From assembly GCA_029975915.1 (NCBI GenBank), contig JARKOC010000436.1, positions 1 to 61,110 of the forward strand: DNA of 61,110 nt, given 5' to 3'. The DNA is from Bryobacteraceae bacterium. GTDB taxonomy: Bacteria > Acidobacteriota > Terriglobia > Bryobacterales > Bryobacteraceae. Made by a program: the position numbers and the translations under genes. Of the stretch, positions 8,576 to 43,148 are shown piece by piece; position 1 is the stretch's first letter; each line of letters opens with the position of its first letter. Below the pieces are notes generated by a model. It worked only from the letters and a program-made list of their open reading frames with translations, was not told the origin of the DNA and did no database searches.

Positions 8576-8789
8576 GGGGAGTTCCCGCTTCAGAAGCTTG
8601 TACCGTTTTTCCGCGGCCCGAGGACCTGAAACTCGGGGGTGCGCCTGGAATGAGCGAGCCGAGACCCGGCAGGACGACTGTCTCGCCTCGCTTCAGTTTC
8701 CTCAGAATGACATCGACGGCCCGCCTGAGGCGTTCGTCGTCGGGCGGCTTTGGCCGGGAACCGCTTTGTTGAGAGGGACGCATCTTCAT
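8559..8789 (-). CDS. small HU-like domain protein upstream of the TIR fusion
   Basis: The 76-residue protein has a polar N-terminus, then RLRRAVDVILRKLKRGETVVLPGLGSLIPG, which repeats the same helix-EGxxVxLxGLG pattern as the N-terminus of the neighbouring TIR protein, and an arginine-rich tail. This is the N-terminal part of an HU/IHF-like fold; the protein is shorter than true HU (about 90 residues) and lacks a clear DNA-binding arm, so it may be a half-domain that pairs with the fusion partner. A GGTGG lies just before the ATG. It overlaps the TIR gene, indicating co-expression. Its function is unknown. Confidence 0.65.
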   Translation of the reverse strand: MKMRPSQQSGSRPKPPDDERLRRAVDVILRKLKRGETVVLPGLGSLIPGAPPSFRSSGRGKTVQASEAGTPRDDKA

Positions 8790-8895
8790 CGGCCACCATT
8801 AAAGAACGCGCCCGGTGCGAAGCGGGCCAAGCTCGCCGATCAGCAAAAACGGTTGCAGCCGAGGCAATACGCTGATCCCGCTCAACTTAGTCGCA

Positions 8896-8992
8896 ACCAA
8901 ACGAACTGCCGGATTTATTTGCTAGTGCCGTGAACGCTTCTGGCGCCGTCCGCAAAAACGCTTGAGGCGCATAGAGGGGTAGTTCGTTTGGT
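8896..8992. repeat. 12-bp perfect inverted repeat enclosing 73 bp
   Basis: ACCAAACGAACT at 8896-8907 is the exact reverse complement of AGTTCGTTTGGT at 8981-8992. The right arm reaches the stop codon of the membrane glycosyltransferase gene and the element lies upstream of the HU-like gene. It could be a small MITE-type insertion, a transcript hairpin, or a regulator site. A single copy is visible in this window. Confidence 0.55.
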
Positions 8993-28660: not shown

Positions 28661-28833
28661 TCCTTCAAACTTTTCATGACCTTGGAGCGCCTCTAGACTG
28701 ACCGCCGGCGGCGGAGTCACCGTTGATCGTGCGGCTGAACTGCCGGAAGTTCCTGACGACGGGACGGTTGCCGGACCTGGCGGAAACCTCTGATAAAATT
28801 TACGGACCCTATCTCCGATTAGAGGAGGCGTCC

Positions 28834-30414
28834 ATGAGGCGATGGCTTGGCAAAAGACTGTCGGCTTCCATCCTGGCTACCCTTGTTCTTCCCTGCACGG
28901 CGTCCGCTGATGTGCTGACAGAGATGCGCAAGGGGGGCAGGATGCTGTGGGGCGGCGACCAGGAGGGTGGCGGGCCTTACGTCTTTCCGAAAGCAGATGA
29001 TCCTGCCCAGGTGACAGGGTTCGAAGTCGATGTGGCGAACCGCCTGGGCGAGTATCTGAAGCTGAGGGCGGAATTCACGCAAGGGCAGTGGGACAAGATG
29101 CCTGACATGCTTCGCACAGGCAAGATCCACGCGATTATCAACGGGTACGAGTTCACCCCGGAACGCGCCGAGACCATGGAGTCCACGATCCCGTACTACG
29201 TCTACGCGCTACAGCTGATGGGGCGCAAGAACGATGCCAGGATCAACTCCTGGGCGGACCTCAAGAGACCGGCTGGCGACACGCAGGCGAAGATTGGTGT
29301 GCTTACCGGGTCGGCAGCGGAGGCCTACACACGCAAGTTCTGCCTCGGGTCGTGCCAAGTGATCTCTTACGAGGGAAACACGGATACGATGCGCGAAGTG
29401 GAAACCGGCAAGCTCGATGCAACTGTTCAGGACACACCCATCTCCTTGTTCTATGCCCCGCGTTTCCCGGCATTGCGCCGAATTGAATCGCCCGTGGCGC
29501 GCGGCTACTATGTCATCTACATCAAGAAGGGCGAGATAGCGCTGCTGAAGGCTTTGAACGAAGCGATCGTCCTGATGCAGCGTAATGGTGACCTCGAACG
29601 CATCTACCGCAAGTACGGCATATGGGACGAGCAACAAGAGGAACTGGCCGCGATCGTGGAGAATGGACGTTTCTATGGTTATCTGAAAGCCACGGCGGCC
29701 AAGGTCGAACCGAACGAGATGCCGTCCGAGGAGTCGGTGCGAGTCGAAATCAGAAAGCGCGGTTGGCAGGTCGTGAAGGACTACAGCGGAATCCTGGTCC
29801 AGTCGGCGGGCGTTACTGTCATTCTCTCCTGCCTGTCTTTCCCACTTGCCATCCTCATAGGTCTGCTGACCGCCCTTGGCCGTCTCTACGGCCGTGCCTG
29901 GCTCCGCGTGCCGCTTACCGGCTACGTCGAGTTTCTGCGCGGCACGCCGGTGATGCTACAGCTCTACTTCATTTTTTTCTTTTTGCCCGAAGTGGGGATC
30001 AAGATCCCCGCGTTCTGGACAGGCGTACTTGGTTTGGCGATCAATTACTCCGCCTACGAGTCAGAGATCTACCGCGCCGGCCTGCAGGCCATTCCCAAAG
30101 GACAGATGGAGGCGGCTCTCGCCCTGGGCATGTCGCGTTTCATGGCTCTCCGCCGCATCATCGTGCCGCAGGCGGTACGTATCGTGATCCCGCCGGTTGT
30201 GAATGATTTCATCGCATTGTTCAAGGACACGTCGGTCTGCTCGGTTGTGACCATCGTCGAACTGACTAAGCGATTTTCCGTCCTTTCGATGAGTACGCAG
30301 GCGACTGTGGAGTTGATGGGGCTGACGGCCCTGCTCTACCTCATGATGAGCTACCCCATGTCGATCGTCGCCCGGAATGTCGAGAACCGCCTGGGATTGG
30401 AGCAGCACGCATGA
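28834..30414 (+). CDS. amino-acid ABC transporter: solute-binding protein fused to permease
   Basis: The 526-residue protein has a signal peptide (residues about 1-25), a class-3 solute-binding domain (about 35-280: GFEVDVANRLGEYLKL, VLTGSAAEAYTRKF, DATVQDTP), and a permease with about five membrane helices from residue 317. The EAA loop for ATPase docking is at about 426-450 (EAALALGMSRFMALRRI), and the FLRGTPVMLQLYF and NDFIALFKDTS motifs are typical of HisM/GlnP. The ATG at 28834 has a GAGGAGG site just before it. The ATPase gene overlaps its end by four bases. Fusion of receptor and permease is known from some Gram-positive glutamine importers and is unusual for an outer-membrane organism. 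Confidence 0.9.
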   Translation: MRRWLGKRLSASILATLVLPCTASADVLTEMRKGGRMLWGGDQEGGGPYVFPKADDPAQVTGFEVDVANRLGEYLKLRAEFTQGQWDKMPDMLRTGKIHAIINGYEFTPERAETMESTIPYYVYALQLMGRKNDARINSWADLKRPAGDTQAKIGVLTGSAAEAYTRKFCLGSCQVISYEGNTDTMREVETGKLDATVQDTPISLFYAPRFPALRRIESPVARGYYVIYIKKGEIALLKALNEAIVLMQRNGDLERIYRKYGIWDEQQEELAAIVENGRFYGYLKATAAKVEPNEMPSEESVRVEIRKRGWQVVKDYSGILVQSAGVTVILSCLSFPLAILIGLLTALGRLYGRAWLRVPLTGYVEFLRGTPVMLQLYFIFFFLPEVGIKIPAFWTGVLGLAINYSAYESEIYRAGLQAIPKGQMEAALALGMSRFMALRRIIVPQAVRIVIPPVVNDFIALFKDTSVCSVVTIVELTKRFSVLSMSTQATVELMGLTALLYLMMSYPMSIVARNVENRLGLEQHA

Positions 30415-31157
30415 TCACCGTCACGAACCTCGTGAAGAGACATGGAGGGAACGAGGTACTGAAGGGCATTTCATTCGAGGTGTGCAAGGGAGACGTGCAT
30501 TCCATTATCGGACCGTCGGGCGGCGGTAAGAGCACGTTCCTCCGATGCGTCAACGGCCTCGATCCATTTCAGGGAGGAGAGGTTCGCGTCGGCAACCATG
30601 TCCTCACCCCCGCAACCAACCCGAGGTCTGACGCCCGGCTACTCGAAAGCGTGCGCCGCCAGGTCGGTTTCGTCTTCCAACAGTTCAACCTGTTCCCGCA
30701 TCTCACTGTGCTGCAAAACGTGATAGAAGCCCCCATCCACGTCTTGAAACTGGAGCGGGACGATGCGGTGCAGCGAGCCGAGAAGTTGCTGGCGCGCGTA
30801 GGACTCGCCGCCAAACACGACGCTTACCCAAGGGACCTGTCCGGCGGGCAGCAACAGCGGGTCGCCATCGCGCGGGCGCTGGTGATGGAACCCGAAGCAA
30901 TCCTGTTTGACGAGCCCACCAGCGCGCTCGATCCGGTGATGGCAGGAGAGGTCCTCTCGCTGATAGCGGATCTCGCCAAAGACGGGCAGACAATGATCGT
31001 TGTCACCCATTCAATGGGATTCGCCCGCAACGTGGCGAACCAGGTTCACGTCTTTGCAGACGGCTACGACGTCGAAAACGGGCCACCGGCAAGGGTGTTC
31101 GGGGATCCGCAGCACTCGACCACAAAATCTTTTCTATCTCAAACAGCGAAGGACTGA
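30411..31157 (+). CDS. amino-acid ABC transporter ATP-binding protein
   Basis: The 248-residue ATPase has Walker A (GPSGGGKST, residues 34-42), Q-loop (FQQFNLFPHLT), signature LSGGQ (about 143-147), Walker B with ILFDEPTSALD (about 164-174) and the switch histidine in VVTHSMGFA. It is of the GlnQ/HisP type and its start codon overlaps the receptor-permease gene by four bases, so it powers that importer. Confidence 0.93.
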   Translation: MITVTNLVKRHGGNEVLKGISFEVCKGDVHSIIGPSGGGKSTFLRCVNGLDPFQGGEVRVGNHVLTPATNPRSDARLLESVRRQVGFVFQQFNLFPHLTVLQNVIEAPIHVLKLERDDAVQRAEKLLARVGLAAKHDAYPRDLSGGQQQRVAIARALVMEPEAILFDEPTSALDPVMAGEVLSLIADLAKDGQTMIVVTHSMGFARNVANQVHVFADGYDVENGPPARVFGDPQHSTTKSFLSQTAKD

Positions 31158-31686
31158 TGCCTGCCGGCCGGCTTCAAGCAGGTGCAACTTTCTGGATTAT
31201 GGGGTCGTGATACAGATCCGATGAATTCCATACGTTGCAGGTGGATAGACCAGAATCAATCTAGCCTCTTCCAATGAATGGATCCTCGCCGGCGGCAGGG
31301 CAAGGTGAGGAGGACATCCGACTCGTCTCATTACATGGGATCCGCAATCAGATCAAGGAACGGGTGTCTATGTTCACCCCTGCTGTCTGGTTCCGGTTCC
31401 AATCCATCCCTCGGCTTGTCCAAGCGACGCCAGTGCGCAGAGATGCGCTGGATTGGGTGGTTTCACCCATCATTAGGTAGCCTCAGAAGGTCGAAGGGAC
31501 GCGTTGCTGCCGCCCTAGGCTTTTGGCGCAAGTACTGCAATTGCAGAAACATAAGACGATCAGACCCTTAAGGCAAGTTCATCCGCCCCGACTGGCCCTA
31601 AAGTTGCTTACTTGCCGTCGAGTTGTGAGGGGATGTCTGTACCCCCACTTGACCTTTCAGAAGCACACAGCAAGGAGCGTTTTCAT
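31158..31686. other. 529-base gap before the molybdoenzyme operon
   Basis: No convincing gene is seen; the short open frames are out of character for the region. Just after the ABC ATPase stop is an imperfect GCCTGC...GCAGGT hairpin (about 31159-31183) without a T-run, a weak terminator candidate. The 3' part holds the hairpin at 31625-31648 and the ribosome-binding site of the iron-sulfur subunit. The length leaves room for a long leader or distant promoter. Confidence 0.5.
31625..31648 (+). promoter_or_regulatory. hairpin in the leader of the molybdoenzyme operon
   Basis: GTGAGGGG and CCCCCAC can pair around a nine-base loop, 39 bases before the iron-sulfur subunit start. It could be a leader hairpin, a remnant terminator or an operator half; there is no T-run after it. 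No resemblance to the molybdenum-cofactor riboswitch was established. Confidence 0.25.
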
Positions 31687-32616
31687 ATGGAGGAATCCAA
31701 GAACGGGGGGGTTACAGCAGCGAAGAGTTCTGGTAGGCGGAAGTTCTTCCAGACCTTGGCTGGGATCGCGCCTGGCGCGGCGGCCGGACTGGCAGGCATG
31801 AAACTGCTTGAATCCGAGAAGGCGCAAGCCGCCGAACTGCCGCCGGTCTTGGCTGAGTCGACCGGAAATGTCATTCTGCGGATGCAGCAGGATCTCGATC
31901 AGACCCTCGCCAGCGGCCAGACGCCCAGTTGGCTCATGGTAGTGGACACTCGCAAGTGCATCGGTTGCGATGCGTGCAGTGTCGCCTGCCGGGCTGAGAA
32001 TCCCACCGGACCGGGCGGGAACTTCCGGCGGGTGATTCAGCGCGAACACGGCCCAAGCGACAGGGCCTGGGCGATCTTCAAGCCTGTGAATTGTCTACAG
32101 TGTGAAAACGCCCCCTGCGCCACGGCCGTACCCGCGGGCATGATTTGGAAACGTCCCGACGGGATCATCGAGTTTGATCTCGCGCGCCTGAAAGGGCCCT
32201 ACGCCCAGGCCGCCGCCAAGGCGTGTCCCTTCAATCTTATTCGCATCGACGACGGCAAGACGTTCACCGAAACCACCCCCGTTCAACAGCCCTACGAAGA
32301 ACGTTCGTTTGTGGAAAACGGGCAGCTCCACAGCCGGAAACAGGGTGCAAACGACCTCCAGGAGTCAGCGCGCAAGTGCACCTTCTGCAGCCATTTGCTC
32401 GATGTGGGCGTGCTTCCGGCATGTGTCACCACCTGTATTGGCGGCGCAATGTATTTCGGTGACGCCAACAACAAGAGCAGTCTCATCCAGGAAATCACTC
32501 AGGGACGGCGCATCTTCCAGGGCCATAAGGATCAGGGAGTCACTCCTCGGGTCATCTACTTCGAAGAGCCCATGCCTGATGCTCCCCACATCGACTGCTC
32601 GAACTGCCACTACTAG
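31687..32616 (+). CDS. molybdopterin oxidoreductase iron-sulfur subunit (4 x [4Fe-4S]), Tat-exported
   Basis: The 309-residue protein has a twin-arginine signal (SGRRKFFQTLAGI) and four ferredoxin-type clusters: CIGCDACSVAC with its last Cys near the N-terminus, CLQCENAPC followed by KACPF, and CTFCSHLLDVGVLPACVTTC. This is the electron-transfer beta subunit of the DMSO-reductase superfamily (TtrB/PhsB/PsrB type). The ATG at 31687 follows an AAGGAG site and begins the Tat signal; in-frame upstream codons lack both. The catalytic subunit follows after nine bases. Having its own Tat signal, rather than riding with the alpha subunit, resembles tetrathionate reductase TtrB. Confidence 0.9.
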   Translation: MEESKNGGVTAAKSSGRRKFFQTLAGIAPGAAAGLAGMKLLESEKAQAAELPPVLAESTGNVILRMQQDLDQTLASGQTPSWLMVVDTRKCIGCDACSVACRAENPTGPGGNFRRVIQREHGPSDRAWAIFKPVNCLQCENAPCATAVPAGMIWKRPDGIIEFDLARLKGPYAQAAAKACPFNLIRIDDGKTFTETTPVQQPYEERSFVENGQLHSRKQGANDLQESARKCTFCSHLLDVGVLPACVTTCIGGAMYFGDANNKSSLIQEITQGRRIFQGHKDQGVTPRVIYFEEPMPDAPHIDCSNCHY

Positions 32617-32625
32617 GAGGACGCC

Positions 32626-35600
32626 ATGGAACACAAACCGAACAATCACCAGAACCCGCAAGCGAATGAGCGTCCCGAGAAGGCAAGGCGCGAGCTCTTG
32701 CGCGCGGGCGCGCTGTTAGGCGGCGCTTGCCTGGCCGGAGCGTTGAAGACTGAGGCGGCCGAAGACTGGCGGGCCGGCAGGGTCCCGGCCAAGGCGCCCG
32801 AGGCCTCCGACTACATCTACTCCACCTGCCTGCAGTGCAATACCGGTTGCGAGATCAAGGTCAGGATCCAGGACGGTGTCGCCGTCAAGATCGACGGCAA
32901 TCCATATGGCCCCCGGGCCATGGATCCGCACATTGGCTGGAATACGCCGGCCGCCGACGTGGCGAGGATTAAGGGCTCCATCTGCCCCAAGGGCCAGGCG
33001 GGCATCCAGTCTACTTATGACCCTTACCGCGTCATCAAAGTCCTGAAACGCGCCGGTGCGCGCGGAGAAGGCAAATGGACCACAATCCCATTTGAACAGG
33101 CCATCACGGAAATCACCGAAGGCGGGACGCTGTTCCCGCAGGACGGCGGACTGCAAGTGACGGGGCTGCGAGACCTCTACGCGCTCAAGGACCCAAAGGT
33201 TTTCGCCAGCATGGCCGCCGACATCACAGCCCTGCAAGACAAAAAGTTGACGGTGGCCGAATTCCAAGCGAAGTACAAGGACCACCTCGATGCACTGATC
33301 GATCCCGAGCACCCCGACTTCGGGCCGAAAAACAACCAGTTCGTGTTCAACTGGGGGCGCCTGAAAGCCGGCCGCCAGGACTTTTTCCTCCGTTTCGTCA
33401 AAGAGAGCTTCGGATCCAACAACGCCCACGGCCACACAACTGTCTGCCAAGGCTCAATCTACTTTGCTGGCAAGGCGATGTCCGAGCAGCCCTCGGGCGG
33501 CAAGTTCACCGGCGGCGCCAAAGCCTACTGGATGGCCGATCTGAGCAACGCCGAGTTTGTGATCTTCTGGGGCGCTAATGTTTTGGAGGGCAACTACGGG
33601 CCGCCGCTCAAGGTACCCAAGATCACACGTGGGATGGCAAGCAAGCGGCTGAAAGTGGCCGTCGTCGATCCGCGTAACACCAAGTTGGGGTCGAAGGCCT
33701 GGAAGTGGCTGCCGATCAAACCAGGCACAGACGCCGCCATGGCGATGGCCATGATCCGCTGGATCATCGAAAACCAACGCTACGACAAGCGTTACCTGGA
33801 AAACTGCAACAAAGCGGCTGCCACCGCCGATGGCGAACCGACCTGGAGCAACGGCGCCTGGCTGGTCAAGATGCGCAGCGACGGATCAGGCGCCGGCTTC
33901 GTCCGGGCAGCCGAGTTAGGTCTTGAAGGAGACGCGGACACGTTCGTTTGCCTGAAAGATGGCAAGCCTGTCGCGTTCAAGTCCGACTCCACCGCCAGCG
34001 CCGTTGAAGGCGACCTCTTCGTCGATACGACGATCAATGGAATCCGGCTGAAGAGCGGATTGCAGATCTTGCTCGATGAGGCCAGACAGAAGACGGTCGA
34101 TGAATGGGCTGAAGCTTGCGGACTGAAGGCGTCAGACATCATCGCATTGGCGCAGGAGTTCACCTCCCACGGCAAACGCGCCGTCGTCGAGATCCACCGC
34201 GGCGTTTCACAACATACCAATGGTTTCTACAATGTCCTGGCCACGATGGGCGCGCTCAACACGCTGATTGGCAATCTCGACTGGAAAGGCGGGCTTGTCT
34301 ACGGAGCCGGCGCTTATGGCGAAACCGGCGGTACTGGCCGGCCCTTCCAGCTCGGCGACCACCCATCCAAGATCACACCGATCGGCCTCGATATCATCCG
34401 CGGCGGCGCGAGCTACGAGAAGAGCACTATCTTCAACGGGTATCCCGCCAAGCGGCCATGGTATCCACTGGCCAGCGACGTCTATCAGGAGGTGATCCCG
34501 TCGGCCGGCGACGCCTACCCCTACCCCATTAAGGCGCTGTTCCTCTACCAGGGTTCACCGGTTTACGCACTGCCCGCCGGCCATTCCTTAATCCCGATCC
34601 TGTCTGACCCGAAAAAGATCCCACTCTTTGTCTGCAGCGACATCACCATCGGCGAGACGAGTCTCTACGCCGACTATATCTTCCCCGACCTGACTTACCT
34701 CGAACGGTGGGAGTTCCACCGGACGCACCCTTCGATCGTCCACAAGGTCTCGCCGGTCAGGCAGCCAGCCGTGGAGTCTCCCAACGAGAAGGTCCGGATT
34801 TTTGGCCAGGAGATCCCGGTCTCTATGGAAGCCGTCTTCCTGGCCATCGCTGAGCGGCTCAATCTGCCTGGCTTCGGACCGGGAGGCTTCGCAGGCAAAG
34901 CTGACCTGAACCGGCCAGAGGATTTCTATCTGAAGATGGTAGCCAACATCGCCTTTGGTGATTCGAATACTGGAGCCGACGTCTGCCCCGATGCAAGCGA
35001 GGAGGAAGTCGCCGCCTTCCTGAACGCCCGCAAGCATCTGCCCAAATCGGTATTTGATCCCGAAAAGTGGGAAGCCGCTGTTGGCTCCGCATGGTGGAAG
35101 AAGGTCATCTACGTGCTCAACCGGGGTGGCCGCTGGTGGAGCTACGCCGAGGCGTGGCCGGGCGAGCAGGTCAAATCGAAGTACGGCAAACTGGTCAATC
35201 TTTACCATGAGAAAGCCGCAACGACACGGAATTCCATGACCGGCCAGTACCTGAAGGGAATTCCCACGTACTTGCCGATCCTGAATTCAATCGGCAAGGA
35301 ACTCAACCATCTCGGCGCGACTCTGCACATGATCACCAACCGGTCGATGCTGGCCTGTAAGAGCAGGACCATCTCGAATTACTGGTTAACCGAGATCCAG
35401 GAGGAAAACTACCTCTACCTCCATCCCAGCGATGCCCTCAAGATGGGATTCAAAGACAACGATCATGCCTGGGTCGGTTCGGCTTCCAACCTGGGTTGCT
35501 CATGGGATTACGGTCCTGGCCTGGGCAAGCCGATGGTCGGGCGCATCCGCACGACCGAACGAATTCGCCCCGGAGTGATGAGCTTTGAGCTTGGATGGGG

Positions 35601-35790
35601 GCACTGGGCCTATGGCGCGTCAAACCAGATCATCGACGGCGAAGTGATCCCGTTCGATGCGCGCCGGGCAAAGGGCATCCATGCTAACGCGGCCATGTAT
35701 GTGGACGACCACATGCGCTCCCCATTGAGCGATGTAGTCGGCGGCAGCGCCGTATTCTATGATTCAAAGGTATTCCTGGCGAAAACGTAG
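32626..35790 (+). CDS. molybdopterin oxidoreductase catalytic subunit, tetrathionate/arsenate/selenate reductase-like
   Basis: The 1054-residue protein has a Tat-like signal (RRELLRAGALLGGACLAG), an N-terminal [4Fe-4S] site (C68, C71, C75, C120; CLQCNTGC...SICPKG) and a DMSO-reductase fold with bis-molybdopterin motifs. A cysteine near residue 274 in TTVCQGSIYF is the probable Mo ligand. GETSLYADYIFPDLTYLERWEF and the length resemble the TtrA/ArrA/SrdA branch, which reduces tetrathionate, arsenate or selenate in the periplasm; the substrate cannot be decided from sequence. An insert with many charged residues (about 170-240) precedes the Mo-ligand region. No NrfD-type membrane subunit follows in this window; Mo-handling genes do. 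Confidence 0.85.
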   Translation: MEHKPNNHQNPQANERPEKARRELLRAGALLGGACLAGALKTEAAEDWRAGRVPAKAPEASDYIYSTCLQCNTGCEIKVRIQDGVAVKIDGNPYGPRAMDPHIGWNTPAADVARIKGSICPKGQAGIQSTYDPYRVIKVLKRAGARGEGKWTTIPFEQAITEITEGGTLFPQDGGLQVTGLRDLYALKDPKVFASMAADITALQDKKLTVAEFQAKYKDHLDALIDPEHPDFGPKNNQFVFNWGRLKAGRQDFFLRFVKESFGSNNAHGHTTVCQGSIYFAGKAMSEQPSGGKFTGGAKAYWMADLSNAEFVIFWGANVLEGNYGPPLKVPKITRGMASKRLKVAVVDPRNTKLGSKAWKWLPIKPGTDAAMAMAMIRWIIENQRYDKRYLENCNKAAATADGEPTWSNGAWLVKMRSDGSGAGFVRAAELGLEGDADTFVCLKDGKPVAFKSDSTASAVEGDLFVDTTINGIRLKSGLQILLDEARQKTVDEWAEACGLKASDIIALAQEFTSHGKRAVVEIHRGVSQHTNGFYNVLATMGALNTLIGNLDWKGGLVYGAGAYGETGGTGRPFQLGDHPSKITPIGLDIIRGGASYEKSTIFNGYPAKRPWYPLASDVYQEVIPSAGDAYPYPIKALFLYQGSPVYALPAGHSLIPILSDPKKIPLFVCSDITIGETSLYADYIFPDLTYLERWEFHRTHPSIVHKVSPVRQPAVESPNEKVRIFGQEIPVSMEAVFLAIAERLNLPGFGPGGFAGKADLNRPEDFYLKMVANIAFGDSNTGADVCPDASEEEVAAFLNARKHLPKSVFDPEKWEAAVGSAWWKKVIYVLNRGGRWWSYAEAWPGEQVKSKYGKLVNLYHEKAATTRNSMTGQYLKGIPTYLPILNSIGKELNHLGATLHMITNRSMLACKSRTISNYWLTEIQEENYLYLHPSDALKMGFKDNDHAWVGSASNLGCSWDYGPGLGKPMVGRIRTTERIRPGVMSFELGWGHWAYGASNQIIDGEVIPFDARRAKGIHANAAMYVDDHMRSPLSDVVGGSAVFYDSKVFLAKT

Positions 35791-35894: not shown

Positions 35895-36782
35895 TTAGTG
35901 CAGTTTCTCCGGGTCGGTCACGCGCGGAGTGAAGTCCTTCCGCTTCTGCCCCACTTCGAGAAACTTGCCGACAAACAGGATATGGCGGTTCACGGGAAGC
36001 GATTTGTAGTCGACTTCGGCGAGGAATCGCTCCACTGTGCTGCGGATGATGCGTTCGCCCGCCGGGTCGCCAGCATCGCACACGACGGCGACCGGGGTGG
36101 AGGCCGCATAGTGGCGCTTCAGGCCGGCAAACAGCCTGGGGTAGTCGAGGTTCATGGTGTAAACCACCAGCGTGCTGCCAGCGGCCATCAGTTTCTCATT
36201 GACGTCGACGCGCCCCGGCCAGTCGTCCATGGTGAGGATAACAGCATTGGTGTCGTATCCGTAGGGCGGGCTCCGCTTCAGCGAAGCGCTGGCCGCCTGA
36301 AACGCGCCTACTCCGGGGATAACCTCCGTTGGAATTTCGGAGGGCAACAGTTCCAGGAACAGCGTCATGCCGTACATCATCGGATCGCCGCTTTGCAGAT
36401 TGGCGACTGTCTTGCCGGCCTTTACGGCCGCAACGATCTTTGCGGTCAGGTCACGCCGTATCTTGGCCAGTTGCTCGGCTTCGGCGCGCTCCTTGAGATT
36501 CGCCAGAGTCTCCGGCTTCGCGCCGTAAAACTTGCGGAGGCTATGGGGGTACTCCCAGACCTCTTTTCCGGCGGCGAGTTTGGACCACATTGCTGGGACC
36601 GCACCCTCCTCGGCGAGCAGGATGTCCGCCCGGGTGATGGTGTTTTGCGCTCGAACGGTCATCAAGTCGGGGGCGGTCCCCATGCCAACAATGATGAACT
36701 TGCCCGAGGTGGCGCTCTGTCCGGAACAAAGCCCTGCGAAGATGAGAAGCGGCACCAAAAAGAGGACACGGTTGGGATGCAT
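35895..36782 (-). CDS. tetrapyrrole-methylase-fold protein with a signal peptide
   Basis: The 295-residue protein starts with a hydrophobic signal (RVLFLVPLLIFAGLCSG) and then the tetrapyrrole (corrin/porphyrin) methylase fold of CobA/CbiF type: KFIIVGMGTAPDLMTVRAQ, ITRADILLAEEG, VANLQSGDPMMYG (SAM-binding GDP motif) and VIPGVGAFQAASASL. The ATG at 36782 is chosen because the frame upstream is unlike protein and a GGAGG lies 11 bases before it. Methylases of this fold use SAM and are cytosolic, so export is puzzling; it may bind a pterin or tetrapyrrole, or the signal may be a membrane anchor facing inward. It converges on the molybdoenzyme and diverges from the Mop gene. Confidence 0.75.
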   Translation of the reverse strand: MHPNRVLFLVPLLIFAGLCSGQSATSGKFIIVGMGTAPDLMTVRAQNTITRADILLAEEGAVPAMWSKLAAGKEVWEYPHSLRKFYGAKPETLANLKERAEAEQLAKIRRDLTAKIVAAVKAGKTVANLQSGDPMMYGMTLFLELLPSEIPTEVIPGVGAFQAASASLKRSPPYGYDTNAVILTMDDWPGRVDVNEKLMAAGSTLVVYTMNLDYPRLFAGLKRHYAASTPVAVVCDAGDPAGERIIRSTVERFLAEVDYKSLPVNRHILFVGKFLEVGQKRKDFTPRVTDPEKLH

Positions 36783-36863
36783 TTTAAGAATAACCTCCAG
36801 GAAAGACGATGTGGGTCGAATGTGGGGCTCAGAAGTCACGGAAGATTGTGATAATGGCGGCAT

Positions 36864-37070
36864 ATGCCTCTCTCCGCAAGAAACCAGCTCACTGGGAAAA
36901 TCGTGAGCATCCAGCTTGGTGAAGTCATGGCCCACGTCACGGTGCGAGTGGGCAAGAGCCAGATCGAAAGCGTGATCACTCGCCGGAGCGTCGAGGAAAT
37001 GGGCCTGAAGAAGGGTGACACAGTGAGAGCCGTGATCAAGTCCACCGAAGTCATGCTCCAGAAAGACTGA
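36864..37070 (+). CDS. molbindin (Mop) molybdate/tungstate-binding protein
   Basis: The 68-residue protein is one full Mop (TOBE-like) domain: RNQLTGKIVSIQLGEVMAHVTVRVGKSQIESVITRRSVEEMGLKKGDTVRAVIKSTEVML, with the SARNQ start, the SVI..SVEELGL core and the VIKSTEVM end that are conserved in molbindins. It stores or buffers molybdate as a hexamer in the cytoplasm. It is divergent from the methylase-fold gene by 80 bases and lies between the Mo enzyme and the Mo-transport genes. Confidence 0.92.
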   Translation: MPLSARNQLTGKIVSIQLGEVMAHVTVRVGKSQIESVITRRSVEEMGLKKGDTVRAVIKSTEVMLQKD

Positions 37071-37092
37071 CGGGAAGGGCGGCGCTGGCCCT

Positions 37093-37317
37093 TCATCGCC
37101 ACGGGTCGCTCCAGCGTGGGTCCTTAAGTAACTCCTCATCGTTGAGGCTCCGCTGGAACTCGATCAGGTCGGCCTTCTCCTCCGCCGCCTGGAGGAGTGG
37201 GTGGAGAATTGCGCTCTTGCATGGGTACGCGGCAGAAACTGCCGCGGCGGGTTGCTGAGGACATGCCGGCGGCGCCAGCCCCAAGCAGAGGGAGACGGTG
37301 GAAGCTAGATTCGTCAT
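37093..37317 (-). CDS. small possible exported protein (low support)
   Basis: The 74-residue frame has a short hydrophobic alanine-rich N-terminus and two cysteines early on, then a charged helix (ADLIEFQRSLNDEELLKDPRW). It is divergent from the TonB-receptor gene, sharing the 65-base intergenic region with the operator candidate. There is no clear ribosome-binding site, so it may be noise; the composition and regular C-terminal helix keep it under consideration. Confidence 0.35.
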   Translation of the reverse strand: MTNLASTVSLCLGLAPPACPQQPAAAVSAAYPCKSAILHPLLQAAEEKADLIEFQRSLNDEELLKDPRWSDPWR

Positions 37318-37325
37318 ACAAGACG

Positions 37326-37340
37326 TTGTAATCTTAACAC
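37326..37340. promoter_or_regulatory. operator candidate upstream of the TonB receptor gene
   Basis: TTGTAA-TCT-TAACAC, an imperfect version of the palindrome at 41974-41988. The right half and following bases read TTAACACGACA, matching the MOT1-side strand of the other site in 13 of 15 positions (ATSTTAACACGACAS). It lies 43 bases before the receptor start, where an operator would be expected. Confidence 0.5.
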
Positions 37341-37382
37341 GACACTTTCGTGATATGGTGAAAACCTATCGGAACTTTGTCT

Positions 37383-39596
37383 ATGAAGATCCTGCTCCCG
37401 CTGTTCGGTCTTTCGTTTTGTCTCTTAATGGCGCAATCCAGTGATCCGGCCATCGACTGGCTGACGCGGTTACAGTCGGTCCAGGCAACCCTTAGGACGA
37501 TACCGGATTCGGCCGGGGCGGACCTCCGGCGCGCGGAGTCGGATCTGCGTCTCCTGCGGCGCGAAGTCGAGGCGTACGGGGAAACGGAAGGAATGGGTCT
37601 TCCGGCTCCTGCCGCGATCCACGACCGCGCCTCCTTGCTGGCGGAGGCGTCCGCTTTACGGGCCGCGCTCGAAGAGCGGCAGCGCCAGAAACCAGGCACG
37701 GCGTTTCATCTGGCCAGGATTGAAGTGAATGTCACGGCATCGGTGGAGCAGCTTTCCACGGCGGCGACGATCGATGAGAGCCACTACCGGGCGCGCGATT
37801 TGAGGACGGTTCCTGAAGCCCTCAACCTCACCCCCGGAGTTTCCATCCAGCGCGTCGGGCCGCGAAACGAAAGAGGGGTATTCATTCGCGGTTTCGACAT
37901 GCGCCAGGTGCCACTCTACATCGATGGCATCCCGGTTTACATTCCCTACGACGGCTACGTCGATATGGATCGCTTCCTCACCTACGACGTCGGGGAGATG
38001 CAGGTGGCCAAAGGCTTCAGTTCGCCGCTTTACGGGCCGAACGCGCTCGGCGGCGCGATCAACCTGATCACGAAGGCTCCAACGCAGCCCCTCAACCTGG
38101 ACATTGGAGCCGGACTTGGATCAGGCGGCCAAGTGAATGGCTTCGCGAACACGGGCATCCGGTGGCGCAACTACTGGGCGCAGGGGGGATTCGCCTGGCT
38201 TTCAAGCGACTCGTTCCCGTTATCCGGCGGCTTCCGGCCCGTGCCCGCCCAGCCGGCAGGTGACCGGAAGAATGCCTATCAAACGGACTATAGGGGCCGC
38301 CTCCGCCTTCGCTGGACGCCGAGCGCGAGTGACCAGTATACGTTCACATACGCCAGCCAGAAGGGACAGAAAGGCAATCCGCCCTATGCCGGAACCGACT
38401 CCGCCGTGCGTGTGCGCTATTGGCAGTGGCCCACCTGGGACAAAGAGAGTTTCTATTTCGTCGGGAACAAGGGCCTGGGCGAGTTCACCTACCTGCGGGC
38501 CCGACTCTACTACGACAAATTCGACAACATCCTCCACGCGTACGACAACAATTGCTATTGCACGCAGCGGCTGCCGTCGGCCTTCACCAGCTTGTATGAC
38601 GACGACACCTATGGCACATCCCTGGAATGGGGCACGCGCGCGGGTAACCGGCACACAGTCAAGTCGTCCTTCTTCTATAAAGACGACACCCATCGCGAGG
38701 GCAACATGGGCGAACCAGCGCGCAGTTTCCGGGACCAGGCATTTTCGATCGGTTTCGAGGATACGGTCCGGTTCAGCCAGAAGGCATCGGCGATCTTCGG
38801 GTTCAGCGCGGACCGGCTTCAGGTCCTGAACGCGGAGAACTACGCCGCCGGCGTTGTTAGCCCGTTCCCGAAGCGGGACGTCTGGGCGCTGAATCCCCAG
38901 GCGGCGCTGTTTCACGCGATCGGCCAATCCACAAAAGCGCACTTCACATTCGCTCGCAAAACGCGGCTGCCAACCATGAAGGACCGCTACTCGTATCGCT
39001 TGGGCCAGGCAATCCCAAACCCGGATCTGCTCGAAGAGCGCACAAACAACTGGGAGGCCGGGATCACGCATCTGCTGGGCCGGCGAACCTTCCTCGAAGC
39101 TGGCCTGTTCCGGAGCGATGTCTCGAATTCGACGCAACGGTTCTTCGTACAGCCGAATGTCTATCAACTGCGGAATCTCGGAGAGGCGAGGTTCCTCGGC
39201 GGCGAACTGGAGGCTCGCAGCGCCCTGACGACACAGCTCAATTTACAGGTCAACTATACCTACCTGAGCCGCAGGAACATGACAAACCCTGGTCTGCCGA
39301 TGATCGACACGCCCCGGCACAAGGCGTATGGATCGCTCACATATCAACCAGGTGCGCGCGTCAGCCTGCTGGTGGACTTCCGCTACGAAGGGGGCCGGTA
39401 CTACCAGAACGACGGTGGCCGGTTTGGCCGCGCCAGCAACTACGCGGTCACCGGATTCGGGGGATCGGCTCGCGTGTACCGGCAGGTCGAGTTGCAGGCA
39501 GGCATCCACAACGCCTTCGACCGCGACTTCATCCTCGTCGATGGATATCCGGAAGCGGGACGGACTATGTATGTCAATCTGCGCTACCGGTTCTGA
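37383..39596 (+). CDS. TonB-dependent outer-membrane receptor with a coiled-coil N-terminal extension
   Basis: The 737-residue protein has a signal peptide (ILLPLFGLSFCLLMAQ), then about 90 residues of charged helix rich in heptad-like Leu/Arg/Glu (LRRAESDLRLLRREVEAYG, LLAEASALRAALEERQRQ), a TonB-box-like IEVNVTAS, a plug domain (ALNLTPGVSIQRVGPRNERGVFIRGFDMRQVPLYIDGIPV, YGPNALGGAINLITKAP) and a beta barrel ending YVNLRYRF. Such a receptor imports a substrate at the cost of TonB energy; the gene lies between Mop and the MOT1/MFS genes, so molybdate or a molybdenum chelate is a plausible ligand (inference). The ATG at 37383 is preferred over a TTG two codons upstream. It ends inside the convergent MFS gene by 23 bases. 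Confidence 0.85.
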   Translation: MKILLPLFGLSFCLLMAQSSDPAIDWLTRLQSVQATLRTIPDSAGADLRRAESDLRLLRREVEAYGETEGMGLPAPAAIHDRASLLAEASALRAALEERQRQKPGTAFHLARIEVNVTASVEQLSTAATIDESHYRARDLRTVPEALNLTPGVSIQRVGPRNERGVFIRGFDMRQVPLYIDGIPVYIPYDGYVDMDRFLTYDVGEMQVAKGFSSPLYGPNALGGAINLITKAPTQPLNLDIGAGLGSGGQVNGFANTGIRWRNYWAQGGFAWLSSDSFPLSGGFRPVPAQPAGDRKNAYQTDYRGRLRLRWTPSASDQYTFTYASQKGQKGNPPYAGTDSAVRVRYWQWPTWDKESFYFVGNKGLGEFTYLRARLYYDKFDNILHAYDNNCYCTQRLPSAFTSLYDDDTYGTSLEWGTRAGNRHTVKSSFFYKDDTHREGNMGEPARSFRDQAFSIGFEDTVRFSQKASAIFGFSADRLQVLNAENYAAGVVSPFPKRDVWALNPQAALFHAIGQSTKAHFTFARKTRLPTMKDRYSYRLGQAIPNPDLLEERTNNWEAGITHLLGRRTFLEAGLFRSDVSNSTQRFFVQPNVYQLRNLGEARFLGGELEARSALTTQLNLQVNYTYLSRRNMTNPGLPMIDTPRHKAYGSLTYQPGARVSLLVDFRYEGGRYYQNDGGRFGRASNYAVTGFGGSARVYRQVELQAGIHNAFDRDFILVDGYPEAGRTMYVNLRYRF

Positions 39597-40782
39597 CGGG
39601 GCGGTAGAAACCCACGCCGATGGCTCCCGCGGCCATCAGAAAACCGGCAAAGCCGAAGGCGGCAGCGGGCCCCGCGATGCTCCATAGCCAGCCTGTCATC
39701 AGACTGCTGAAGAAGTCCCCGGCGCCGTTCACAATCGAGAGGAGCCCGAAACCCGCCCCTCGCCGCCCTTGAGGCACCAATTCGGCAGTCAACGAATCTT
39801 CGAGTGTCTCTTCCATGCCGACGTAGACGCCGCCGAGGGCAAAGGCGGCGGCGAGCGCTGGAAGCGATCCGGCTCCCCATGCCAGCATCAAGGCCACCAG
39901 CGCGCCGAGCGCGTAGCCCGCTGAGAGCAGTTTCTGCTTCGGTAGCCGGTCCGCCAGCCATCCGGCTGGATAGGAGCTCGCCGCATAGCAAACGTTGTGC
40001 AGGGCGTAGAGCGCCACAGCCATGCTCGCGGCCTCGGCGGCGCCGTGGCGGGAAGCCAATGCTGAGGTCGCATATAGGATCATCAGCGAGTGGGCGAAGT
40101 CGCCCGCGCCGAACACGCCGATCCAACGCAGCAGCCGTACATAGGGACGCGGGAGATCACGGTAGCTATCCAGCAGCCGGTGCGGATGCGGCTCGCGCGC
40201 GGGAGTCTCGCGGACAAGCGCGGTGATGGCCAGAACGGCCAGCAACGCCGGCAGTGTCGCCCATATCATCAGATTGCGCGGGGCGAATCCCGCCTTGAGT
40301 AGAAACAGTGTCGCCACGGGCGCCAGCACCGCGCCGAGGGTGTCCATCGTGCGCTCAAAGCCGAACGCGCGCCCATAGCTATCGGCTGTCACCGCTTCTG
40401 ATAGCAGCGCCTTCCGCGGCGGCGTCCGTAAACCGCGGGCCACCCAGGCCAGCGTGCGGCCACTGAGCACGATGATCCAATGTCCCGCTGTGGCGATGAC
40501 CAGCGTCGCCGCCGCCATGACTCCATAGCCAGCGGCGCACAAGGGCTTCCGGCGCTGAAGGCGATCTGTCCACCAGCCGCCATAGAGCTTAGCGACCGCG
40601 GACAGACCGTCCGCGACACCTTCGATCGTGCCTAGTGCGGCGGCGGCCACGCCCAACGTAGCCAGCAGGCCGGGGAGAAGGGAGGTGACTGTCTCGTGGC
40701 TTAGGTCGCTCAGCAGAGACGCCATCCCGATACCAAGCACCGTGGCGTTGAGCCATGAGTTGCGTTTCCTCAGCAAACTCAT
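39574..40782 (-). CDS. MFS transporter next to the MOT1-like permease
   Basis: The 402-residue protein has 12 membrane segments with MFS loop motif GGWWTDRLQRRKPL and an FERTMDTLGAVLAP segment. An AGGAG ribosome-binding site before the ATG and the one-base gap to the permease's stop show that the two are one operon. The substrate is unknown; either an exporter paired with the uptake system or a second importer would fit. Confidence 0.85.
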   Translation of the reverse strand: MSLLRKRNSWLNATVLGIGMASLLSDLSHETVTSLLPGLLATLGVAAAALGTIEGVADGLSAVAKLYGGWWTDRLQRRKPLCAAGYGVMAAATLVIATAGHWIIVLSGRTLAWVARGLRTPPRKALLSEAVTADSYGRAFGFERTMDTLGAVLAPVATLFLLKAGFAPRNLMIWATLPALLAVLAITALVRETPAREPHPHRLLDSYRDLPRPYVRLLRWIGVFGAGDFAHSLMILYATSALASRHGAAEAASMAVALYALHNVCYAASSYPAGWLADRLPKQKLLSAGYALGALVALMLAWGAGSLPALAAAFALGGVYVGMEETLEDSLTAELVPQGRRGAGFGLLSIVNGAGDFFSSLMTGWLWSIAGPAAAFGFAGFLMAAGAIGVGFYRPVRTGSAD

Positions 40783-40783
40783 T

Positions 40784-41983
40784 TCACACTCCTAACCGCA
40801 CCCAACCACGGCGCATGAGGTGATAGCAAGCAAGGCCCAGGAGCAGCCCAGCCAGATAACCGTAGGGCACCGAGCTGGCCACAACACCGACCAGCGCGGC
40901 GAGCACAAAGCTTGCTCGGTCACCTGATAGGTCACGCATCAATGTCAGCAACGTGAGTGATTCGAACAGCAGGAGCACTCCGAGCACAGGCAGCGGGAAG
41001 ACCTGGATCACAGTCTGAAAGCCTGGCCCGAAAAAGAGGCCCAGAACCACGAACATCGTTCCATAAATGATCACGGATCCGCCCGTGCGTCCCCCGAATG
41101 CATAGTGGCCGGCCATGCCGCCCGAGCCGTGGCAGGTAGGGATGCCAGCCAGTAGGGGGTTAATCAGGTTCATGAGCGAATAGGTCCAGCCAATTGCCCC
41201 AACGGTGATCCGCCTTTCCGGGAACAGATCTTCGGTGAGCTGCCGGGTGGCGAGAACGGAGTTCGCGATCGAAAGCGGAATCTGAGGCAGAGCCAGCAGG
41301 AGGAATCCGGTCCAGACATCCGGAAGGGTGGGCTGGTGCCAAGTCGGCAGATGGAAGCCAACTGAACCAATCAGATCAGGCATATGCAGCTTGAAGCCGA
41401 AAGCGTAAGCCACGCCCAAAGCCACCAATGCGATTGCGGCCGGCACGCGGCGCCGGCCAATCATTAGAAGCGTAATCACGAGACCCGCAGCCGCCAGCCA
41501 CCATCCGGCTTTGCCCTCGGAAGGCACAAACTCCTTGAGCGCGATGCCAGCGAGTTGCAGTCCCAGGCCACACTGAATGCCACGAATCACCGGTTTCGGC
41601 ACGGCCCGGTTGATCCACTCGAGCAGCCCCGTCATGGTTAGAATCAACATGCTGATGCCAATCGCCAGGCCGCCGCCATAGAGCACATTGGCAGGCAGTT
41701 TCTGGGCGATCACCAAGGCGGCCATCGCCTTCAGCGGCTGGACCGGCATGGGCATCCGGTAACGCAGCGCAGTGGCAATCTGCATTAGTCCAAACACGGT
41801 AAGCACGCTGGCGGCGTTAAGGCCGGAAGCCAGTGTCATCCCAACGATCAGCGGGAGATCAGTGCCCATGTCGCCAAATGCGCCAGACCATTCTTGGCGG
41901 TCGAAGCGGATGCGGGCTGGGGGCGCGGAGATGTTTGCAGCGGTTTCGGGAACGTCGTGTATAGGCACCTGTCGTGTTAACAT
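40784..41983 (-). CDS. MOT1-like sulfate/molybdate transporter
   Basis: The 399-residue protein has the SulP-related MOT1 layout: RQEWSGAFGDMGTDLPLIVGM near the start, PVQPLKAMAALVIA in an early helix, and CHGSGGMAGHYAFGGRTGGS in a later one, both hallmarks of putative sulfate/molybdate transporters (MOT1 family). Plant and algal MOT1 import molybdate with high affinity. The start ATG at 41983 lies within the palindrome and has no strong ribosome-binding site, so a leaderless transcript or the GTG 15 bases further in is possible. It is divergent from the regulator gene and co-transcribed with the MFS gene. Confidence 0.85.
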   Translation of the reverse strand: MLTRQVPIHDVPETAANISAPPARIRFDRQEWSGAFGDMGTDLPLIVGMTLASGLNAASVLTVFGLMQIATALRYRMPMPVQPLKAMAALVIAQKLPANVLYGGGLAIGISMLILTMTGLLEWINRAVPKPVIRGIQCGLGLQLAGIALKEFVPSEGKAGWWLAAAGLVITLLMIGRRRVPAAIALVALGVAYAFGFKLHMPDLIGSVGFHLPTWHQPTLPDVWTGFLLLALPQIPLSIANSVLATRQLTEDLFPERRITVGAIGWTYSLMNLINPLLAGIPTCHGSGGMAGHYAFGGRTGGSVIIYGTMFVVLGLFFGPGFQTVIQVFPLPVLGVLLLFESLTLLTLMRDLSGDRASFVLAALVGVVASSVPYGYLAGLLLGLACYHLMRRGWVRLGV

Positions 41984-41988
41984 AACAC
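41974..41988. promoter_or_regulatory. palindromic operator candidate between permease and regulator genes
   Basis: GTGTTA-ACA-TAACAC is a perfect 6-3-6 palindrome, 45 bases before the regulator start and overlapping the probable start codon of the permease gene. It would let the helix-turn-helix regulator control both genes. A related site is at 37326-37340. Confidence 0.65.
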
Positions 41989-42032
41989 AGTCGCGCGAAA
42001 CGGCCCGAAGGAATCGCGGCAGGAAGGCCAGC

Positions 42033-43148
42033 ATGTCTGTCTCCAACCACCTCGCCCTCATCCGCCAGGAGCGCGGAATGGCCGCCGCTGACCTTGCCAA
42101 GCGGGTAGGTGTCAGCCGCCAGACAGTTTACGCGATTGAATCCGGCAGCTATGTGCCAAACACGACAGTGGCGCTGCGTCTCGCGCGCGAACTCGAAGTC
42201 TCTGTTGAGGAACTGTTTTCACTCGATCAGCCTCAACAGACCACCGTCGAAACGATCAAGGCCGCTGTGCTCATGCCTGAGGACGCGGAAACAGCGCGGC
42301 CTGTCCTGTTAGCGCATATGAAGAACCGATGGGTTGCGGCCCCTGCGGCCAGCCATCGTTATTACTTGCCAGAGGCCGACGGCCTCATCGCGAGTACCCA
42401 CACCGGATCCTCGGAAGCGGCCGTCGATTTGGTCGGATCCCCGGAGGCATTGAGCAAGCGCCTTTTCGTCGCAGGGTGCGATCCTGCCATTGGCTTGCTG
42501 GCGCGCATGGCGGAAAGGCTCTCGGGCGTGGAAGTGATCGCAGTGCCCGGATCCAGCCGCCGCGCGCTGGAATGGTTGAGAAAAGGCTTGGTGCACATCG
42601 CCGGCAGCCACCTGGAAGACCCGGACTCCGGCGAGTTCAACTTGCCCTACTTACGCCGGCTCATGCCACGCGAGGATCTCTCTGTCGTGACCTTCGCCCG
42701 GTGGGAGGAAGGATTTGTGGTCAGGCCAGGAAATCCTCTCGGCATTCGGCAAGCGAGCGATCTTGTAAAGCCGAAAGTGCGCTTCATCAATCGCGAAGCG
42801 GGCTCCGGGAGCCGGGCGTTGCTGGACTCGCTTCTGCAAAAGTCGGGAATCACTGCCAGCAGGATCCGCGGCTTTGATCATGTTGCGCCGGGTCATCTTG
42901 AAGCGGCGGAGACGGTGTTACGGGGAGCGGCGGATTGCTGCCTGGCCACGTCCTCGGCCGCGCGCGCGTTCGGCCTTACATTCGTGCCGCTCCACACCGA
43001 GCGTTTCGACTTCGCGGTCCGGCGCGAGTTCATCGACCTCCCGGCGGTCCGGAGCGTTCTTGATGTCCTGCAACGTGCCACGCTCCGGCGAAAGCTCGAA
43101 TCTCTGGCCGGTTACGACACGTCGGAGACAGGCCGCGTCTTGGTTTAG
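42033..43148 (+). CDS. XRE helix-turn-helix regulator with molybdate-binding-protein-like domain
   Basis: The 371-residue protein has an XRE-type helix-turn-helix in residues about 5-60 (IRQERGMAAADLAKRVGVSRQTVYAIESGSYVP) and a periplasmic-binding-protein-like domain from about 110 to 350 (LFVAGCDPAIGLLARMAERLSG, HIAGSHLEDPDSGEF, KVRFINREAGSGSRALLDSLL, CCLATSSAARAFGLTFVPLHTERFDF). The latter matches the PBP-like module found in molybdate-responsive regulators, which senses molybdate in the cytoplasm. An AGGAAGG site precedes the ATG. It is divergent from MOT1/MFS over the palindrome and probably represses uptake when molybdate is plentiful. Confidence 0.88.
   Translation: MSVSNHLALIRQERGMAAADLAKRVGVSRQTVYAIESGSYVPNTTVALRLARELEVSVEELFSLDQPQQTTVETIKAAVLMPEDAETARPVLLAHMKNRWVAAPAASHRYYLPEADGLIASTHTGSSEAAVDLVGSPEALSKRLFVAGCDPAIGLLARMAERLSGVEVIAVPGSSRRALEWLRKGLVHIAGSHLEDPDSGEFNLPYLRRLMPREDLSVVTFARWEEGFVVRPGNPLGIRQASDLVKPKVRFINREAGSGSRALLDSLLQKSGITASRIRGFDHVAPGHLEAAETVLRGAADCCLATSSAARAFGLTFVPLHTERFDFAVRREFIDLPAVRSVLDVLQRATLRRKLESLAGYDTSETGRVLV

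Follow-up and report, generated by a model that had tools for sequence, protein, structure and literature searches.

How does molybdenum (Mo) cross the outer membrane of Gram-negative bacteria? The question is raised by a stretch of 61,110 nucleotides from a Bryobacteraceae bacterium (contig JARKOC010000436.1; the whole stretch is called the window below), in which a gene for a TonB-dependent outer-membrane receptor (TBDR) lies among genes for the handling of molybdate. An initial annotation had proposed a Mo-uptake locus here, composed of a Mop molbindin, the TBDR, a major facilitator superfamily (MFS) transporter, a MOT1-like permease and a regulator with a helix-turn-helix (HTH) and a molybdate-binding-protein-like domain, next to a molybdoenzyme. 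All of these genes are indeed present, as judged by matches to family models (Table 1; the regulator, with HTH and PBP_like domains, is referred to as REG). We suggest that the receptor probably acts in Mo-regulated, TonB-driven import of a Mo or tungsten (W) species, as the outer-membrane step of an acquisition regulon, and that it most likely represents a new substrate class for TonB transport.

The evidence for this comes from the genomic context of 80 loci that encode relatives of the receptor (L001-L080), eleven of them from Bryobacterales/Acidobacteria (L001-L010 and L021), many from Bacteroidota, and some from Pseudomonadota, Verrucomicrobiota and other groups. Recurrent neighbours were clustered blind to function, part of the clusters were then annotated, and hidden Markov models (HMMs) built from the clusters were run over all 80 loci; ModE-type HTH, ModA, ModB, Mop and REG genes within 10 kb of the receptor were counted as Mo-specific. 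A ModE-type HTH gene occurs in 44 loci (within 365 bp of the receptor in 33), Mop in 11 and REG in four, while ModA and ModB are each found in nine, 1.1-3.8 kb from the receptor, with modC also present in some loci. An 83% identical Mop is encoded in L001 and L002, and a 77% identical one in L003, at 1.7-1.9 kb from the receptor. Of the 80 loci, 56 have one or more Mo-specific genes, or 25 of 42 when counted by taxon group. Once ModE-type operator boxes are included, a Mo gene or a box accompanies the receptor in 68 loci with all box forms (67 with the four exact forms), and in 30 of 42 taxon groups with the four exact forms.

The corresponding count is zero among 39 TBDRs that are unrelated to the receptor and come from 17 of the genomes that contain these loci. 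These control loci (719 kb) hold no ModE-type HTH, PF00174 partner, MbnH, ModA, ModB, Mop, REG, MOT1 or box of any form, and three of them show a generic ATP-binding cassette (ABC) ATPase match to the ModC model. The control consisted of 40 stretches of 10.9-19.0 kb with receptor frames of 627-891 aa, selected for frame length and genome spread among the Plug matches listed, from which L138 was left out (overlap with the target locus of L050; scored positive); it replaced an earlier background set of 30 TBDR loci (L081-L110) with flanks of 1.5 kb. Further to that, no recurrent gene for iron, B12 or sugar uptake was seen among the annotated neighbour clusters, which are part of all clusters. 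The initial annotation had named homologues sitting beside genes for unrelated substrates as the outcome that would speak against it; at 68 of 80 loci versus 0 of 39, the context instead favours Mo import, in which the receptor would carry molybdate or a Mo chelate.

ModE-type operators were found at the receptor promoters themselves. In 34 of 80 loci, perfect 7-bp inverted arms with a 12-bp spacer lie no more than 450 bp ahead of the receptor match, compared with 5.2 loci expected for random windows and 2.9 for shuffled sequence; a 14-bp spacer gave 21 loci, probably because the same palindromes are read with a shift, and other spacers from 4 to 20 bp gave 1 to 14. All 14 copies of CGATAT-N12-ATATCG in the 1.58 Mb searched lie within 235 bp of the start of a receptor match. 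The E. coli-type form CGNTAT-N12-ATANCG, which fits the ModE consensus of E. coli, ATCGNTATATA-N6-TATATANCGAT, given in the accessible part of PMC545781, has 35 copies; 25 loci have it at the receptor promoter (taken as -450 to +200 relative to where the match starts), with 28 copies in all. Two variants, CAGTAT-N12-ATACTG and CACTAT-N12-ATAGTG, were spotted in these promoters, and the three forms together amount to 70 boxes, 54 of which are at a receptor promoter, in 49 of 80 loci. The other 16 lie before a second TonB receptor in Flavobacterium (seven), before ModE-type HTH (three), MbnH (two) or PF00174 (one) genes, or before none of these (three). This second receptor (852 aa, L030 7285-9843; same place in L032, L033, L036, L047 and L072; Pfam check on the L030 copy only) has its boxes 37-115 bp before the start. 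All 16 HTH partners sampled match both ModE_repress (TIGR00637) and the E. coli ModE model at E <= 1e-3, the sole one with a score shown reaching 83.5 bits with TIGR00637 against a cut-off of 98.5. By their promoter boxes, relatives of the receptor appear to belong to a ModE-controlled Mo regulon, the window and its order apparently using REG and another operator instead.

In Bryobacterales, REG seems to replace ModE. No ModE match was obtained in any of 10 Bryobacterales genomes checked, and PF12727 scores at least 141 bits in 10 of 14 receptor-bearing genomes of the order. Outside the order, 12 genomes whose receptor locus has no adjacent ModE were searched, ten having exactly one ModE elsewhere (three above cut-off) and two, both Chitinophagaceae, none. 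A REG-type gene adjoins the receptor or its pieces in G045, G064, G124 and G068, and also in L004; REG stands beside the receptor in L004, L005, L182 and L183. In G003 and G035 the receptor is alone, and a separate SUOX-REG-MbnH operon (L188 and L189) has a similar operator.

In the window, REG is likely the Mo-responsive regulator, as its domains and its place beside the receptor in other loci suggest. The 11-mer TTAACACGACA has exactly two copies there at up to one mismatch, one at 37334 in the receptor promoter, next to ATACAAGACG, and one at 41970-41980 in the gap between MOT1 and REG, next to ATACACGACG (0.26 copies expected; two were reached in 1 of 100 shuffles). The pattern WWACRNGACR gave 16 matches in 18 promoter windows against 0.14 expected, with at least one at 12 of the 18 promoters, a count that is descriptive because the pattern was derived from the same sequences. 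One of the 16 (42158) lies inside REG, and the two sites of the MOT1/REG gap fall outside the counted windows. The pattern is missing at six promoters (L005, L007, L008, L009, L010 and L184), three of which (L008, L009 and L010) belong to genomes without a PF12727 protein (G146, G196 and G093, matched by coordinates). Searches with other REG half-site patterns gave scattered matches too.

The commonest partner of the receptor, found in 63 of 80 loci, is a SUOX/PruR-like protein of PF00174, and an MbnH-type di-haem enzyme is encoded in 37. The PF00174 partner is about 155-220 aa long and secreted, as judged by eye; all 27 copies sampled match PF00174, and one of the 63 (L058) is a full-size Mo enzyme. 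In a structure model of the L001 copy (predicted local distance difference test, pLDDT, 91.8), the best match is PruR (7kom, E 3.2e-9; 7rkb, with neopterin), followed by sulfite oxidases, whereas a sequence profile puts sulfite dehydrogenase first (E 6e-8) and PruR lower (E 0.006). Among 56 clustered partners, a CxSG motif, apparently at the place of the Mo cysteine (by eye), is present in 18 and missing in 38; MbnH accompanies none of the former and 32 of the latter. The SUOX-like module apparently exists in two exclusive versions, one with CxSG and one with MbnH, an exclusion that represents few independent events because 15 of the 18 CxSG partners are from Flavobacterium. Two MbnH copies were scored with TIGR04039, that of L001 at 420.3 bits, above the cut-off of 362.85, and that of L041 at 269.4, below it. 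In proteobacterial loci (L011 11912-13252, L064 6304-7638, and L017), SBP_bac_6 and a DHOR di-haem protein replace SUOX/MbnH, a second di-haem association.

The window is a variant of this arrangement. In L001 and L002, full MbnH and PF00174 genes lie on the minus strand between Mop and the receptor (MbnH at 8229-9299 and SUOX at 9396-9881 in L001). In the window, 312 bp separate Mop from the receptor, and these hold a 74-aa open reading frame (ORF), absent from the initial annotation, with a remnant of MbnH. Apparently the lineage lost the MbnH and SUOX-like genes at this place and kept Mop and the receptor, with MOT1 and REG alongside.

The expected co-occurrence of the receptor with MOT1 did not hold up, in contrast to that with Mo genes; its recurrent partners are the SUOX/PruR-like, MbnH-type and ModE-type HTH proteins. 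An HMM scan found MOT1 in none of the 80 receptor loci. In the 14 receptor-bearing genomes of the order, PF16983 is above cut-off in six, strongly (> 98 bits) in three and at 30-33 bits in the others, and none of the strong matches is near the receptor. MOT1 was therefore rejected as a conserved partner, and its linkage to the receptor is a feature of the window alone. Beside MOT1 in L192-L194, no MFS match was found at E 1e-30. Within the window, MFS and MOT1 form one apparent operon, as annotated, with REG divergent from MOT1; the receptor stands outside this operon and converges on it, its 3' end sharing 23 bp with that of the MFS gene. The start codon of MOT1 is uncertain because an operator candidate falls within its longest ORF.

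Taken together, these observations can be accommodated in the following scheme. Under Mo scarcity the receptor promoter would be released by a Mo-responsive regulator, of the ModE type in most loci and REG in this order, and the receptor, with TonB energy, would bring the scarce Mo or W species into the periplasm. There, the secreted SUOX/PruR-like protein may act in most relatives and the MbnH-type di-haem enzyme in about half, both having presumably been lost from this place in the window. The oxyanion would then cross the inner membrane via MOT1 (in the window) or ModABC (in nine loci), and Mop would buffer it for molybdoenzymes such as the adjoining TtrA-like one. Mop proteins serve in cytoplasmic storage or sensing of Mo oxyanions.

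It may be that the receptor carries Mo on an organic ligand, such as the Mo cofactor (Moco), another Mo-pterin from dead cells or a catecholate chelate, a special case of Mo import that we regard as possible, if rather unlikely. Periplasmic retention of the ligand would then fall to the SUOX/PruR-like protein, and its oxidation to free molybdate to the di-haem enzyme. TonB receptors usually import bulky ligands, and the best structural matches of the commonest partner, ahead of sulfite oxidases, are to PruR, including its neopterin complex. PruR likewise has no Mo-ligating cysteine and binds small pterins (accessible part of PMC13259868), and di-haem partners of the MbnH or DHOR type recur beside the receptor, much as MbnH and TBDRs occur together in methanobactin loci (accessible part of PMC3621798). 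On the other hand, PruR is, by the same part of PMC13259868, likely too small for Moco, the sequence profile ranks sulfite dehydrogenase above PruR, nearly a third of the clustered partners (18 of 56) have the CxSG motif, and the window is without both partners. Extended to a widespread molybdophore-like or cofactor-scavenging system, a kind not met with in the literature examined, the idea becomes quite doubtful: the receptor would import Mo-pterin or other organic-ligand Mo, the PruR-like protein would receive it, MbnH (or the Mo cysteine in the CxSG variant) would break or oxidise it, and molybdate would enter by ModABC or MOT1.

As a protein, the receptor falls below the cut-offs of all 25 NCBIfam models shown, the best being the TonB siderophore model TIGR01783 (116.5 bits; cut-off 223.5), with 99.8 bits for the B12 receptor BtuB (TIGR01779; cut-off 599.7) and 19 bits for the copper receptor OprC/NosA (TIGR01778; cut-off 472.45). 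A Plug followed by a beta-barrel, and a C-terminus RYRF with an aromatic last residue, identify it as a TBDR; the stretch RIEVNVTA ahead of the plug resembles a TonB box (by eye), and the AlphaFold model (pLDDT 84.8) has an ordinary TBDR fold. An alignment of 33 receptors has 117 invariant columns, none of them Cys or Met. OprC binds copper through Cys and Met, and an OprC-type copper site was rejected on the ground that the conserved columns contain neither. A protein search with 7996 candidates scored yielded 574 relatives, of which the best 120, where an organism is named, come from Bryobacter, Bryobacterales or Bryobacteraceae. L001 belongs to genome G001; among 200 genomes of that genome's order, where no more than five candidates per genome were scored, 13 have a family member at 615 to 1313 bits, and the copy of G068 is frame-broken (L185, left out of the context examples). 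As the other matches shown reach at most 86 bits, the family seems to be discrete and patchily distributed.

Several points weigh against the import of Mo. In a Foldseek search the closest solved fold to the receptor model is that of the copper receptor OprC (E 4.8e-34), ahead of BtuB, Fiu and PqqU, and methanobactin (copper) loci are a known setting of the MbnH family. For the SBP_bac_6 partner the nearest model is that of a phosphonate-type binding protein (62 bits against a cut-off of 393), not ModA; neither MOT1 nor MFS is a conserved neighbour of the receptor; and REG of L048 and L060, two of the four counted, is just 27-28% identical. The 80 loci are the best of 393 stretches confirmed in a scan of GTDB genome contigs, and many are closely related (25 from Flavobacterium, 10 from Dyadobacter). 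The neighbour HMMs, the REG operator and the two box variants come from the very loci they describe, a circularity that is limited, without being removed, by the use of the same HMMs and boxes in the control. Lastly, 12 loci lack Mo genes and boxes alike (L006-L010, L016, L021, L056, L058, L064, L066 and L074). Among these, PF00174 and MbnH partners accompany the receptor in L007 and L066, ModE is encoded elsewhere in the genomes of L016, L064 and L066, the genome of L006 has the separate SUOX-REG-MbnH operon (L188), and L058 has a sulfite-oxidase-type Mo enzyme upstream, with a similar-sized gene at the same place in L074. An NTPase_1/DUF2478-type membrane protein, possibly another Mo link, adjoins the receptor in L008 (2797-4569), L010 (12138-13886) and L056 (8150-9883), the domain having been checked on the L008 and L056 copies.

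Some of these points would suit a receptor that is Mo-regulated and yet imports something else, such as copper, a pterin or an iron chelate, needed during Mo shortage or molybdoenzyme synthesis. The OprC-like fold, the copper association of MbnH, the non-ModA binding protein of the proteobacterial loci and the scarcity of ModABC and MOT1 nearby (71 of 80 loci are without ModA) all agree with it. We consider it improbable nonetheless: the receptor scores very low with the TonB-copper model and, unlike OprC, has no invariant Cys or Met that could serve as copper ligands, no iron or B12 uptake gene recurs among the annotated neighbour clusters, and modAB lies within 3.8 kb of the receptor in nine loci. 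That an ordinary siderophore receptor, as the best NCBIfam model (below cut-off) might suggest, has come to lie beside Mo genes by chance is extremely improbable in view of the 68 of 80 versus 0 of 39 loci and the boxes at 49 receptor promoters.

The remaining genes around the receptor are given in Table 1. The range stated in the initial annotation begins at 35895 with a minus-strand gene for a tetrapyrrole-methylase-like protein, which is no known Mo gene. An exported protein with this domain is odd for a methylase of the S-adenosylmethionine-dependent type; it adjoins Mop in the window, in L001 (7067-7879) and in L002 (21-851). The usual methylase loop is GxGPGD, and the window protein reads GMGTAPD at this position; it has close relatives (69-71%) in just 2 of 17 genomes searched. 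The TtrA-like molybdoenzyme has thiosulfate reductase (2vpw) as its sole PDB relative at E <= 1e-20. ABC genes at 28723-31157 on the plus strand, an SBP_bac_3 binding protein-permease fusion and an ATPase, resemble an importer of the polar amino acid type and not Mod. Elsewhere, a further TonB receptor is divergent from the Mo-linked one in Dyadobacter (L050 6981-9152, minus strand), and two Bacteroidota metagenome-assembled genomes (MAGs) have a nitric oxide reductase (L070 481-2859) or an MFS/Usp fusion (L078 6389-8119) near the receptor, a possible link to denitrification.

Table 1. Genes and candidate operators around the TonB-dependent receptor of the window
Feature	Position	Strand	Basis
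4Fe-4S ferredoxin subunit, TtrB/DsrO-like, partner of the molybdoenzyme	31612..32616	+	PF13247, 66.2 bits; TtrB, 108.6 bits (below cut-off of 416)
Molybdopterin oxidoreductase, divergent TtrA-like	32626..35790	+	PF00384/PF01568/PF04879; TtrA, 500.7 bits (below cut-off of 1750)
Tetrapyrrole-methylase-like protein, apparent signal peptide (by eye)	35895..36782	-	PF00590, 115.9 bits
Mop molbindin	36864..37070	+	TIGR00638, 76.4 bits (above cut-off of 55)
74-aa ORF, last 31 residues a remnant of the MbnH-type di-haem enzyme C-terminus	37093..37317 (match 37096-37188)	-	MbnH HMM, E 7e-6
Candidate REG operator, receptor promoter, ATACAAGACG + TTAACACGACA	37316..37344	+	TTAACACGACA copies; similar sites in further promoters of the order
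TonB-dependent outer-membrane receptor, 737 aa	37383..39596	+	Plug PF07715, 67.1 bits
MFS transporter, 3' of MOT1	39574..40782	-	PF07690, 115 bits
MOT1-family molybdate permease	40784..about 42022	-	PF16983, 176.8 bits, two stretches (cut-off 30)
Candidate REG operator, MOT1/REG divergent promoter, TTAACACGACA + ATACACGACG	41953..41980	-	TTAACACGACA recurrence in the window
Regulator REG, HTH + PBP_like	42033..43148	+	HTH_3, 51 bits; PF12727, 208.7 bits

If Mo import by this receptor is real, active uptake of Mo across the outer membrane would be widespread, in place of porin leakage alone: ModE-type operators precede the family's genes in Bacteroidota, Prosthecobacter, a Chromatiales MAG and an Ignavibacteria MAG, and in Acidobacteriota the neighbour is REG. 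Receptors with no source name other than 'iron complex outermembrane receptor' or 'TonB-dependent receptor' would gain a substrate, and the search for what the SUOX/PruR-like and MbnH-type partners do would have a starting point. Consequences for nitrate reduction and N2 fixation are conceivable in Mo-poor settings.

Among known systems, molybdate is thought to reach the Gram-negative periplasm by diffusion through porins (accessible part of PMC8264917), and ModE/ModABC/Mop uptake, as described, has no dedicated outer-membrane transporter. The ModE-type HTH, the boxes, modABC and Mop of that system adjoin the receptor in many loci. The initial annotation had called TonB-dependent molybdate import little described, in line with which no report of it was found in the open-access library searched, most subscription journals being outside this coverage; a paper on moeA of Flavobacterium IR1 has nothing on this receptor in its accessible part (PMC12758843). 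A dedicated outer-membrane route for molybdate would be shared with Pseudomonas aeruginosa, where ModA is secreted by the H2 type VI secretion system and the outer-membrane protein IcmP takes part; no receptor of the present kind is named in the accessible part of that report (PMC11734730). With PruR, the PF00174 partner has in common that it is a small secreted SUOX-fold protein, 38 of 56 copies being without CxSG as PruR is without the Mo cysteine, and it may bind pterins, to judge by this likeness; Agrobacterium PruR sits with DcpA (PMC13259868, in part), whereas the partner here sits with a TBDR. Methanobactin loci (MbnT, a TBDR, and MbnP/MbnH) likewise place a TBDR next to a di-haem enzyme of the MbnH family; the receptor loci differ in the SUOX/PruR-like partner (MbnP was not searched for) and in regulators of the Mo type, with only a remnant of MbnH in the window. 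Finally, OprC, BtuB and siderophore receptors resemble the window receptor in their Plug and barrel fold and, probably, in serving metal acquisition under a metal regulator, while the window receptor is set apart from them by scores below every NCBIfam cut-off shown, by the lack of invariant Cys or Met, and by its linkage to Mo genes and ModE-type operators.

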